From Candidatus Krumholzibacteriota bacterium (GTDB lineage: Bacteria > Krumholzibacteriota > Krumholzibacteriia > LZORAL124-64-63): DNA of 64,000 bases. A program made the position numbers and the translations under genes. This document shows, piece after piece, positions 1 to 37,109 of the stretch (the stretch's first letter is position 1; every line of letters begins with the position of its first letter). The notes beneath the pieces were generated by a model. That model did not search any database. It saw nothing but the letters and a program-made list of their open reading frames with translations, and was not told the DNA's origin. The stretch covers positions 1-64,000 of the forward strand of contig JAJRZA010000032.1 in assembly GCA_024275485.1 (NCBI GenBank). The letters are read 5' to 3'.

Positions 1-182
1 AACTATGCAAAACCACGTTGACCGAAACCACTTAAGTTGCTGCCATGGTACACCATCAGCGGAAAAAGTCAGGATTTTCTGGACCTCATGTATCACGGAT
101 ACACCACGGTCCAGAAAATCCTGACTTTTTCCACTGCTGGCACACCCTGACAGCTTTCGCCTCAACGTGGTTTTGCACAGTT
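1..182. repeat. 182-bp nested palindromic element
   Basis: The outer arms (1-21 and 162-182) are inverted copies with 20 of 21 bases matching; the core of the arm is TGCAAAACCACGTTGA. The inner arms (61-85 and 108-132) are a perfect 25-bp inverted repeat starting GGAAAAAGTCAGG. The tip is a 22-base loop, and the stretches between the inner and outer arms are partly complementary. It sits just past the stop codon of the nucleoside kinase gene that is read towards it, so it could act as a terminator or be a MITE-like repeat. No ORF, transposase or second copy is visible. Confidence 0.8.
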
Positions 183-195
183 GGGGTTGATATTC

Positions 196-1890
196 CTAGT
201 AATGGAAACCACTGCCGCCAATAAACTCCCTCAGCAATGAGGTGGGAGGCACCTGACTGGCATCCACCGGCAGCAATAAACTCAGCAAATCAATCAGCGA
301 CCGGGCCAACCCGTAGTTCTTGTCGTCCGGATGCACCGCCGCCAAACGAGGTTCGGCCCACAACTTCAACACCGCCAGCTCATAGGTCAGCCCCGAATTG
401 AAAAACAGATCGGCGTGGTTTTGGAAAGGGAAGATGTGTTTCTCTTCTCCGAGCCGAACCTTCGGCCAGCGGGCCAGGGTTTCGCTGGCGGTGTATCCTC
501 GGAATTGGGCATCGCGCACAATGCGGCGAAACAGCCGGGTGTCGGTGGTCTTAATGTAGCTGTAATTGTCGATGTTCATGTGGCAAAGGGCTGAAACATA
601 AATGCGAAGTTTCTTGTCATCACTGATTGCGGGAGTCAGTAGCGGATTCAGGGCGTGGATGCCTTCTACCAACAGGGGTTGTCCTTTTTCCAGGGTGGTG
701 GCCCGGGGGCTGATGGAGCCCATGCCGGTGTGGAAGTTGTACTGGGACAATTTTACGGATTCACCAGCCATCAGGGCTTTCAAATGGTCATTAAAAAGAT
801 CCAGTTTCAGGGCATTGATGGATTCATAATCGTAGTCGCCGTCTTCATCCAGGGGCGTGGCTTCCCGATCGACGAAATAGTTGTCCAGACTCAGGGCGAA
901 AGGCCTTAAGCCCAGCACCCGCAGCTGAACCATCAGGCGTTTGGCGCTGCTGGTTTTGCCGCTGCTGGAGGGGCCGGCCAAAAGAATAAGTCGACTCTCA
1001 CCCGATATTTCCGCCACCTGGTCGGCGGCTTCCACAAAAAACCGGCTGTGCCGGGCCTCGGATATCTGAACCAAATCGCTGGTGCGGCCATCAACGATGT
1101 ACTCGTTCATGTGGCCGGTGTCCTGCAATTCCTGCAGATCACTCCAGGTGGAGTATTGCCGCAGAGTGGTCAGCAGCTTGGACTGGGGCACGTAGGTGGG
1201 AATTTTTCCAGGCTCCATCTTCACATTGGTCATCAGAACAAAACCGGGATTTTCGGGCACCAGCCGGAAGGCGCGGACAAAACCGGTGGACGGCAACTGC
1301 CGACCGAAGTAAAGTTGATCAAAACCGTTCATGCGAAAGAGGGTCAGGTTGTCGCGGCGCAGATATTTGGCCGAGGTGAAGCGCTGGTGTTTACCATCGC
1401 GCTGGAGCATTTTCAGAAGGGCCCGCAGGCCGAAACGCTGGGGGGTCAGGGGCAGATCCATGGCCACCAGCTCGTGCATGCGCTCTTCCAGGGCGCGAAT
1501 CTGATTCACACTCAGGGGTTCATTGCCCACCAGTCCACAATAAACGCCGCCCCCGTAGCTGAAGTCGGCCCGCAATCGGTGGTTGGGGAAAAGATCTTCA
1601 GCCGCAGCTGCCATCACAAATAGCACCGTGCGCTGGATGGTGGTCTGGGCTTCCTTGTCCTTCAGGCGGATCAACCGCACCCGCTCGTCCCCATGGATGG
1701 CTTCGTGCAGGCATGCCCGTCGCCCATTGATGGACATGATCACGATGGGATTCTGCTGACCGGGGTCAATTTGGCCTTTTTTCTGCAAATATTGCAGGAT
1801 GGTGGTGCCGGGAAGGATTTTCACTGGTTGGTTGTCCAGCAGGATTTCAACCATGTCCAATTGAGTTTCCTCGTATTTTTCTGAAAACAT
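196..1890 (-). CDS. TGS-domain nucleoside (uridine) kinase-like protein
   Basis: Cytosolic P-loop kinase of the uridine kinase/phosphoribulokinase family. An N-terminal TGS-like domain and a ThrRS second-additional-domain-like region (about residues 10-220) precede the kinase domain. The Walker A motif is GPSSSGKT in the C-terminal half. This architecture is known for bacterial nucleoside kinases; the exact substrate is not readable from the sequence. I chose the ATG at 1888-1890 because it has AGGAA upstream and avoids overlap with the FmdB-like gene; the open frame runs on to 2055 but would overlap that gene. It probably forms a two-gene unit with the zinc-ribbon gene (16-nt gap). Family call is confident, substrate is not. 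Confidence 0.85.
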   Translation of the reverse strand: MFSEKYEETQLDMVEILLDNQPVKILPGTTILQYLQKKGQIDPGQQNPIVIMSINGRRACLHEAIHGDERVRLIRLKDKEAQTTIQRTVLFVMAAAAEDLFPNHRLRADFSYGGGVYCGLVGNEPLSVNQIRALEERMHELVAMDLPLTPQRFGLRALLKMLQRDGKHQRFTSAKYLRRDNLTLFRMNGFDQLYFGRQLPSTGFVRAFRLVPENPGFVLMTNVKMEPGKIPTYVPQSKLLTTLRQYSTWSDLQELQDTGHMNEYIVDGRTSDLVQISEARHSRFFVEAADQVAEISGESRLILLAGPSSSGKTSSAKRLMVQLRVLGLRPFALSLDNYFVDREATPLDEDGDYDYESINALKLDLFNDHLKALMAGESVKLSQYNFHTGMGSISPRATTLEKGQPLLVEGIHALNPLLTPAISDDKKLRIYVSALCHMNIDNYSYIKTTDTRLFRRIVRDAQFRGYTASETLARWPKVRLGEEKHIFPFQNHADLFFNSGLTYELAVLKLWAEPRLAAVHPDDKNYGLARSLIDLLSLLLPVDASQVPPTSLLREFIGGSGFHY

Positions 1891-1906
1891 CCCGATTCCT
1901 TTCAGG

Positions 1907-2176
1907 TCAGCCCTTGTTCTTATCGGCATTCTTGGTATTATGGCTGCTGGAAGGGGTGGAGGAGCTTGGTGATTCTCCTGCAACACTTCCCTTTTTAACA
2001 CGAGAATCGGTGATATAAAAGCCCGAGCCTTTGAAATGAAGGCCGACGCCACCACTGATCAGGCGCTCAACCTTGCTTCGGCATTTGGGACAGCGCTGCC
2101 GTTTTGGTGCGCTCATGGGCTTGAATTCCTCGGTGATGAGGCCACAGTGGGTGCACTCATATTCATATGTCGGCAT
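1907..2176 (-). CDS. FmdB-family zinc ribbon protein
   Basis: An 89-residue protein that opens MPTYEYECTHCG and has a second CPKC pair at about residues 30-33, the four cysteines of a small zinc ribbon typical of the FmdB putative regulatory family. The tail (from about residue 60) is low-complexity, rich in Ser, Lys and Asn, and probably disordered. The role is unknown; family members are widespread and often sit beside housekeeping genes. It lies directly upstream of the nucleoside kinase gene on the same strand and is divergent from gapA. Confidence 0.85.
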   Translation of the reverse strand: MPTYEYECTHCGLITEEFKPMSAPKRQRCPKCRSKVERLISGGVGLHFKGSGFYITDSRVKKGSVAGESPSSSTPSSSHNTKNADKNKG

Positions 2177-34787: not shown

Positions 34788-34837
34788 AGTCCGCCTGGTC
34801 AGGAAGACGGAATCTTCCTGCTCAACAATTTGATTGC

Positions 34838-35021
34838 GGCCTGTGAACCAGCGGAAGTCCGGTTAAAGTCCGGCGCGGCCCCGCCACTGTAAACGGTGAC
34901 GAAACCTGCATTTGAGCCACTGATCCCACCTCGCCAGAGGTGACCGACCAAGGATGGACGGGCGGATCGGGAAGGCGCAGGGAGTAGATAGACCCGTAAG
35001 CCAGGAGACCGGTTCAAGGCC
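34838..35021 (+). ncRNA. Cobalamin (AdoCbl-type) riboswitch
   Basis: The conserved core is present in order: a CCGG/CCGG helix (34858-34874 region), GCGGCCCCGCCACTGTAAAC with the GCCACTG box at 34883-34889, and the B12 box CCAGGAGACC at 35001-35010. The closing P1 helix pairs GGCCtgTGAACC (34838-34849) with GGTTCAaGGCC (35011-35021). It lies immediately upstream of the BtuB-like receptor gene and would repress it when cobalamin is abundant. Confidence 0.93.
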
Positions 35022-35028
35022 TGCCACC

Positions 35029-35045
35029 ACCTTCGTGGGCGAGGT
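35029..35045 (+). promoter_or_regulatory. Likely Shine-Dalgarno sequestering hairpin of the riboswitch
   Basis: ACCTTCG (35029-35035) can pair with CGAGGT (35040-35045) across a TGGG loop, with one bulged T. The right arm is the ribosome-binding site of the ATG at 35046, so the riboswitch probably controls translation rather than termination; no T-run follows. Confidence 0.5.
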
Positions 35046-37109
35046 ATGGCTTTGGCTCTCCATCCCGGCAGGGGAATTCCAGGAACGGGTTTCTTTCAAA
35101 AGAATGCGGCTGTTTTGCCGCTGGTTTTGTTGTGCCTGATGGTTTGGACTGGGCCAGCCCGTGCCGTGGATGCCGGCACCATGGTATACACCGTCAGCGA
35201 TACCGTAGTGGTCCGTGCCAGGGCGATGGGTGATGCGATCACTCCCTCGGCCGCCGGTATGGTGACGATTATTGATCTGGAAGATGAATCCGGCAGTAAG
35301 GATTTGGCTGAAATTCTAGGACGCACAGCAGGTTTTCAGGTGCGTCACCATGGTGGATTGGGTTTTGCCGGGGTGCCTTCGTTGCGTGGGTCTTCGGCGG
35401 CCCAAATTCGAATTTTTATTGATGGCCTGCCCTTGAATGATGCTCAAAGTGGAACGGTTGATTTGTCCCTGTTGCCGGTAGAGCGGTTCTCCCGTGCTGA
35501 AATACATCGGGGGGTGGTGCCGGGTGGTTTGGGTGGCATGGGTGGTGCTGGCGCCGTGAATTTGATCACCCGCTCACAGGCCGATGGCCTGGATGCAGGT
35601 GTTTTTGCCGGTGGTTTTGGCAGCCTTGGCGGTCGTATGACTTGGGGTGCGTCCTCGAACGAGGGAGATCGATCCATCCTGCTGATGGGACACGGTCGCC
35701 GGGCCGACAACGACTACCAGTATCTGGACAACAACCAGACTTTCCTGGAAACCGGTGATGATACTGTTCGTGTACGCCAAAATGCCTGGTTTGAAGAGTG
35801 GGGTCTTTGGGGCAGCAGTCGGATGGAGTGTGGACCGCTGGATATTCGTGCGGTGGCTGGTTGGTTTCGCAAGGATGGTGGCCGGCCCGGGCCGATCAAC
35901 TATCCTTCCCCATCGGCAACCGTGCGTCTTGATCGTCTGGATGGTCAGGTGCAAATATCGTTGCCCCCGCAACTGACCCTGGAATTTTCCACCGCCAAGG
36001 TGGAACAATTCCTTTTTGATCCGAATAATGAAATTGATGATGGGTTTGGCGGGGATATTCACTCGCTCAACAATGATTTGACGGGCCGCATCTCCTGGAC
36101 GCCCAACCTCTGGAAAAGTCATTCATCCGGTTCATTTATTTCCCTGGTAAACTTGACTGCAGGGGTGGAGCGCCGCAGTCAATGGTACAATCAGTGGTAT
36201 GGTGCCGATGAAGATCCGCGCCGCAATCGCCACACCGATTCTGCTTTTGCGGCTTTGCCCATGGTCCTTTTCGACAACAACCTGCAACTGACGCCGGCCT
36301 GGCGTTTCCAACGAAACACCGATGATTTCCCACCCCTGCCCGCCCTACCCTGGTTGCCTGAGGACGAAGATGTGAAAAATATTCGTCACGATGTTTCCCC
36401 ATCCGTGGGTCTGGTCTGGGAAGTGCAACCCGATACCTGGTTTGTGGAAGCTCATGCGGGGCAATCCGTACGCATTCCTACCTGGGTGGAGCTGTTTGGA
36501 CATCGCGGTGGAATTGACGGCAACCGTGAGCTCTCACCCGAGGAAATCACCGCCCTGGATGTGGCGCTGGTCTGGAAGCCTTCATCCGGTTTTTCATCCC
36601 GCCTTTCGGCCTTTCAGGCTCAAACCGACGACGCCATAATTTTCGTACAAAACAGCCCTGGAACCAGTCACGCCCAAAATATCGGCGCGACCCGCAACCG
36701 TGGCTTGGAATGGGAAGGACAGTTTTTGCTGCCTCACAAATTGCATTTGCAGGCCAATGCCACCTGGCAAGATCCAGTGGATCTTGGAGAGATACCTCAT
36801 TTGAACGGCAACAGTCTGCCATACCTCAGCGATGTGGAAATCGATGCCCGCCTGACCAGACCGGTGGGCTTCTGGCGTCTCTGGGTGGAACTCTCCCATG
36901 AAAGTTCCAAATACCGGGATCGTGCAAATACCGAACTGATCAAAGCCCCTGCCCGAACCCGGTGGAATTTGGGTGTGACCCGATTGATTGGCAATAGCCT
37001 CGAAATTTCCGCAGAAGTGATAAATCTGACCGACGACCGTACTTACGATGTCGTGCAATTTCCCCTACCCGGTAGAACATGGCAAGTGGCCATGCGCGTT
37101 AACCGGTGA
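35046..37109 (+). CDS. btuB: TonB-dependent receptor, BtuB-like (vitamin B12)
   Basis: 687 residues: a signal region (hydrophobic to about residue 39), a TonB-box-like DTVVVRAR (about residues 51-58), a plug domain (DLAEILGRTAGFQVRHHGG, LRGSSAAQIRIFIDGLPLND, EIHRGVVPGG), then a 22-stranded-type barrel ending in VNR. Cobalamin specificity is inferred from the riboswitch just upstream. The ATG at 35046 is very close to its GAGG; no better in-frame start is visible. Co-transcribed with the propeller gene 14 nt downstream. Confidence 0.88.
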   Translation: MALALHPGRGIPGTGFFQKNAAVLPLVLLCLMVWTGPARAVDAGTMVYTVSDTVVVRARAMGDAITPSAAGMVTIIDLEDESGSKDLAEILGRTAGFQVRHHGGLGFAGVPSLRGSSAAQIRIFIDGLPLNDAQSGTVDLSLLPVERFSRAEIHRGVVPGGLGGMGGAGAVNLITRSQADGLDAGVFAGGFGSLGGRMTWGASSNEGDRSILLMGHGRRADNDYQYLDNNQTFLETGDDTVRVRQNAWFEEWGLWGSSRMECGPLDIRAVAGWFRKDGGRPGPINYPSPSATVRLDRLDGQVQISLPPQLTLEFSTAKVEQFLFDPNNEIDDGFGGDIHSLNNDLTGRISWTPNLWKSHSSGSFISLVNLTAGVERRSQWYNQWYGADEDPRRNRHTDSAFAALPMVLFDNNLQLTPAWRFQRNTDDFPPLPALPWLPEDEDVKNIRHDVSPSVGLVWEVQPDTWFVEAHAGQSVRIPTWVELFGHRGGIDGNRELSPEEITALDVALVWKPSSGFSSRLSAFQAQTDDAIIFVQNSPGTSHAQNIGATRNRGLEWEGQFLLPHKLHLQANATWQDPVDLGEIPHLNGNSLPYLSDVEIDARLTRPVGFWRLWVELSHESSKYRDRANTELIKAPARTRWNLGVTRLIGNSLEISAEVINLTDDRTYDVVQFPLPGRTWQVAMRVNR

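Follow-up and report, generated by a model that had tools for sequence, protein, structure and literature searches.

The palindrome that opens the 64,000-nucleotide stretch of Krumholzibacteriota DNA analysed here (the window) is one copy of a MITE, of which about 18 insertions were counted in the genome. It is probably a foldback element of 190 bp that grew out of one end, the right one, of an insertion sequence of the IS1380 family and is moved in trans. Within what was searched the MITE is new by sequence, while the kind of mobile DNA that it represents is already known. A MITE-like non-autonomous repeat had been proposed in the sequence-only reading, and this identification was borne out: the element is repeated in the genome, its terminal inverted repeat is constant, 4-bp target duplications adjoin it, and one empty site was found.

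The nested palindrome described in that reading proved real, as both pairs of arms were located. The outer arms (1-21/162-182, 21 bp each) were 95% complementary and the inner arms (39-85/108-154) 85% complementary, the latter including a perfect 25-bp core around a 22-nt loop (Table 1). As RNA, window positions 1-200 folded at -102.3 kcal/mol on the + strand (z = -13.15) and more stably on the - strand (-120.5 kcal/mol; z = -15.53), with none of 200 shuffles as good in either case. No ORF of at least 60 aa overlapped positions 1-186, in agreement with the lack of coding capacity claimed earlier, and the Rfam scan gave no family over threshold at the palindrome. Elsewhere in the window, a cobalamin riboswitch (RF00174, 80.2 bits; 34828-35031, + strand) was found directly before an ORF (35046-37109) whose translation looks like a TonB-dependent outer-membrane receptor.

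The ends of the arms had also been taken for sharp edges of the element, which did not hold on either side. The first window base opens contig C14 of the 106-contig draft genome, so that the left edge is an assembly break, and the right edge lies 4 bp short. In the readable flanks of the copies, the 182 bp are preceded by CCCC and followed by GGGG (one of the 32 ends reads CCCT), and the complete element is therefore 190 bp long (CCCC + 182 bp + GGGG), of which the window copy spans base 5 (window 1) to the last base (186). The terminal inverted repeat measures 25 bp (CCCCAACTATGCAAAACCACGTTGA). Searched genome-wide with up to three mismatches, this 25-mer gave 33 matches (27 exact and six with one mismatch), all 33 on element ends, compared to none in the same genome for its reversed control pattern.

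Table 1. Coordinates of the MITE copy and its surroundings at the start of the window.
Feature	Position	Strand	Remark
MITE copy, 186 of 190 bp	1..186		first four bases (CCCC) beyond contig start; full copies in C88 and C49
Left (A) terminal inverted repeat	1..21	+	bases 5-25 of 25
Left inner arm	61..85	+	perfect 25 bp
Loop	86..107		reversed with respect to the arms in six halves at contig ends, which pair into three copies
Right inner arm	108..132	-	perfect 25 bp
Right (B) terminal inverted repeat	162..186	-	25 bp, differs at one base from the most frequent end
Target duplication TTGA	187..190		partner word next to the half-element that opens contig C100 (L008)
Neighbouring host gene (PRK/uridine kinase domain)	196..2055	-	outside the element; stop 9 bp from it

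A search for further copies, suggested as a check, returned 74 matches to the 182-bp query in its own genome at E ≤ 10, many of them opposite-strand duplicates or weak. The insertions counted were 18, namely 13 full-length ones (11 of them inferred via pairing of contig ends), one without the inner palindrome and four truncated. Full 190-bp copies with both flanks lie inside contigs C88 (8557-8746) and C49 (69954-70143), C17 carries a full copy 12 bp from the contig end, and the C14 copy is full except for its first four bases. C93 holds, inside the contig, a 98-bp version without the inner palindrome, and one end only was found on C62, C99, C52 and C42. The copies cut by contig ends comprise seven further left (A) and seven further right (B) halves with the usual loop orientation, as well as three A and three B halves with an inverted loop. 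The loop thus appears to be inverted in three copies, which were put together from halves because none was seen whole. With 21 contig ends falling within element sequence and another lying 12 bp beyond it, the element accounts for 22 contig ends of the draft genome.

Target-site duplications, the second check suggested, were found as 4-bp TNNA words. The flanks compared were 32 of at least 30 bp from about 18 insertions, and hence not 32 independent events; the left side of C14 (no flank) and the right side of C17 (12 bp) were left out. Among these flanks, the four bases before CCCC read TNNA, with T in 29/32 and A in 30/32, and no comparable base preference was detected at positions farther out. 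The same word stood on both sides of the copies uncut by contig ends in C49 (TAAA) and C93 (TTGA), and the duplication was imperfect in C88 (TCTC and TATC). For the broken copies, A words were the reverse complement of B words in all eight usual-loop cases, among them C14 and C17, and the A and B words of the inverted-loop halves paired in three out of three. This pairing (11/11) compares with a best of 9/11 in 400,000 simulated sets of the same per-position base composition, a simulation that assumes the four word positions to be independent. The 12 bp beyond the C17 copy were those of the flank of C84, its word-matched partner. Among the 11 A flanks, only that of C100, whose word fits C14, matched near the C14 gene in the congener G031 (67% over 205 bp, about 1.25 kb from the gene there), while the C14-gene loci of the other four congeners gave no match to the A flanks. 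Target-duplication words can show in this way which contigs adjoin, and the junctions C14-C100, C17-C84 and C7-C66 are among those that they predict. An empty site was recovered for the C49 copy, as the congener G030 aligned uninterrupted across the insertion point; by BLAST, G031 and G032 aligned on the right side only and G029 on both sides, not across, and the G033 locus stopped short of this point.

None of the five congeners had a match to the element at E ≤ 0.001, and the single copy conserved in place that had been named as the finding against a mobile element was thus not seen. Matches in the 38 genomes of the family were confined to the element's own genome and G026, and the same two genomes were matched among 80 genomes of the phylum. 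G026, which belongs to another genus of the family, possessed a single decayed copy (C25; L036 1420-1600) that aligned over nearly the whole element, inner part included, with a score of 139.6 compared to a maximum of 69.4 in 200 base-shuffled controls. The place of this relic is also present in record JAHOYV010000008.1, named as "Gemmatimonadales bacterium". Plasmids and phages gave no element match, and the viral contigs gave none to a looser end pattern. The exact first 21 bases had no match in genome_contigs, a set from which the element's own genome may be absent. The looser end pattern had seven matches there, one of them the G026 relic; for the other six no convincing inverted partner was found (5-6 edits, in three), which is about chance by our own estimate.

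The link to the IS1380 family was drawn from related genomes. The search for transposases by family covered PF13701 only, and PF13701 (IS1380-family) genes were present in 8 of the 38 family genomes (E ≤ 1e-5). Six of these genes were compared with NCBIfam and all matched NF033539 (IS1380 family transposase), two above the cut-off and four, partial genes with the G013 halves among them, below it. In G013, the end behind the transposase C-terminus reads CCCCAACTTTGCAAAA. A right-end query (TNNACCCCAACTNTGCAAA, up to two mismatches, with TNNA as part of the query) had five exact matches in this genome (TACA, TATA, TAGA, TTCA and TAGA) and no others there, compared to one for the control. The right ends so found read CCCCAACTTTGCAAAACCATCC (four) and CCCCAACTTTGCAAAAGC (one), all adjoining TNNA. 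One further exact match, in G022, adjoined an IS1380 gene fragment. In the 36 genomes that remain when G013 and the element's own genome are excluded, the query gave 43 matches compared to 19 for the reversed control, so that many of the mismatch-bearing matches are due to chance.

The right end of the G013 IS1380 element (CCCCAACTTTGCAAAACCA) equals the MITE end in 18 of the first 19 bases, and the likeness stops after 19 bp. The left end of the same element (CCCCATGATTGCATAAAT) is not alike; searched without TNNA, it was found four times in G013, preceded by TATA, TCTA, TTTA and TGAA, and was not found in G005. The left words had been predicted beforehand from the right ends, and two of the three new ones fit while TTTA did not, TGAA being already known; words without a partner were one of four on the left (TTTA) and two of five on the right. 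Judged by their sequences, IS1380 elements in this bacterial family resemble the MITE in having CCCC ends and TNNA targets, the agreement covering the right end and the target preference.

Within the element's own genome, the 25-bp end (up to three mismatches) marked MITE ends only, and no element combining such ends with a transposase turned up. The transposase with the same ends that had been suggested as a check was thus not found in this genome, and a nearly identical right end was provided by the IS1380 element of G013 in the same family. PF13701 matches in the genome itself were on C79, in a C55 fragment and in a weak third case below the cut-off. The C79 gene (L032 17-1171) is an IS1380-family transposase gene truncated by the contig start, with no MITE-type end within the stretch read. 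On C55 (L033 1400-1850), a relic of an IS1380 gene retains roughly its N-terminal 70 residues and precedes a weakly similar, CCCAACTTTTGAAAC-like end. A shorter end pattern also matched at C33:89052 and, with two mismatches and judged to be chance, at C62:43661. The former (C33:89052-89070; L144 5053-5071) is a lone TATA directly followed by CCCCAACTATGCAAAAGG before a lipoprotein-like gene, with no partner end and no transposase in the stretch read. Nothing useful was found when CCC-type inverted pairs with duplications were sought at the IS1380 loci.

The mover of the MITE is probably an IS1380-family enzyme. The CCCCAACTNTGCAAAACCA ends would be recognised by such a transposase (DDE). It would join the element to TNNA sites cut with a 4-bp stagger, each site thereby becoming duplicated, and the gene-less MITE would rely on this enzyme in trans. 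With both ends of the MITE resembling the IS right end, inverted duplication of that one end is the simplest origin for the arms, and it would also explain the palindromic body. The inner stem may in turn allow the loop to flip by recombination or template switching.

Movement by a different transposase family sharing the preference for TNNA and CCCC ends seems unlikely. No partner with the full end was found in the element's own assembly, and none was revealed by the first 21 bases, searched exactly in genome_contigs, or by the looser pattern in viral contigs, and the likeness to IS1380 is limited to 19 bp in a family-level search that covered PF13701; on the other side, IS1380 elements of the same taxonomic family agree with the MITE in 18 of 19 bases and in their 4-bp TNNA target. 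Tn3-type elements have GGGG ends and a 5-bp duplication, and IS5-type targets are YTAR; both origins were rejected, as the 4-bp TNNA duplication and the CCCC ends do not fit. The inner palindrome invites another history. Read from B to A, it is bordered in C88 and C49 by GGTGCGCC and GGTGTACC, with slight variation in other copies, and a single GGTGCACC occupies its position in C93, which fits either a slippage deletion between two repeats or a form that preceded the insertion. Accepting the second option, the MITE would be a composite in which an outer 98-bp IS1380-type MITE (the C93 form) received the inner palindrome with an 8-bp duplication (GGTGCGCC/GGTGTACC), the loop then flipping as a small invertible switch in a mobile hairpin. 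We regard this history as improbable: such repeats for a slippage deletion would come from any palindromic 8-mer of the arms, and since the G026 relic has the inner part, the two-part structure seems old, which makes a deletion the likelier history.

The surroundings of the copies raised the question of an RNA function. Twelve of the 32 flanks contained an ORF that points at the element and stops no more than about 30 bp from its edge by rough ORF calling, six at A ends and six at B ends, the one in the right flank of C49 being doubtful (leuS runs the opposite way). With about a third of the flanks having such a close facing gene end, many copies would be expected in transcripts, as hairpins within the 3' ends. 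The TNNA words can hold the stop codon itself, as in C49 (TAAA) and C100 (TTGA), and the gene is then spared; at C49 the element lies over the TAA stop codon of a gene resembling a chemotaxis receptor, before leuS (names from translations). Beside the C88 copy, the MITE supplies the last codons of an HNH-like open frame (own reading; L002 1634-2728, - strand). A conserved regulatory hairpin behind genes (terminator or riboregulator), selected for its RNA, would agree with these facing ORFs and with a very stable fold that is better on one strand, but it is very improbable, being unmatched in the five congeners though the neighbouring genes are kept, and without an Rfam family. TTTT within 12 bases behind GGGG was present in only 1/32 flanks, as was TTTTT within 20 bases, so that the copies do not as a rule show the hairpin followed by a T-run that is typical of an intrinsic terminator. 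As there is no T-run as a rule and both read directions are equally represented, no directed RNA function is indicated; a strand-specific one, considered for the better fold of the - strand, was rejected on the 6 to 6 division of the facing ORFs. An assembly artefact of a contig end is scarcely credible: the window copy does open its contig and contig ends are frequent in element sequence, but complete copies lie inside C88 and C49 and the short copy inside C93.

The MITE, probably derived from an IS1380-type end, gives an example of its kind in a lineage known from draft genomes, and the inverted loop of three copies adds a minor point of interest. No description of an IS1380-derived MITE was found in the literature searched, sampled in part, and one may exist in print. 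The nearest system is the IS1380 family itself (PF13701, NF033539) as found in G013, which differs from the MITE in carrying a transposase gene and in its left end. Correia elements are linked to IS630. Those of Neisseria are short non-autonomous elements of 204 bp with terminal inverted repeats, often near genes and in transcripts, for which inversion of the whole element has been reported (PMC10969869). By description, the whole Correia element inverts, whereas in the Krumholzibacteriota MITE only the loop does. Many MITEs have TA duplications (PMC4133298), in contrast to the TNNA found here. MITEPye1 of Paracoccus yeei is likewise a MITE that folds into a long stem-loop and whose ends place it in an IS family, in that case IS1182 and not IS1380 (PMC11578231). 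The piggyBac transposons, for which IS1380 was used as an outgroup, have CCC-type end motifs and 4-bp TTAA duplications, with rare variants such as TAAA, TCAA and GTAA (PMC10813416). They are eukaryotic and mostly use TTAA, whereas the Krumholzibacteriota MITE is bacterial and uses TNNA, a target that resembles the TTAA of these eukaryotic transposons compared with IS1380.
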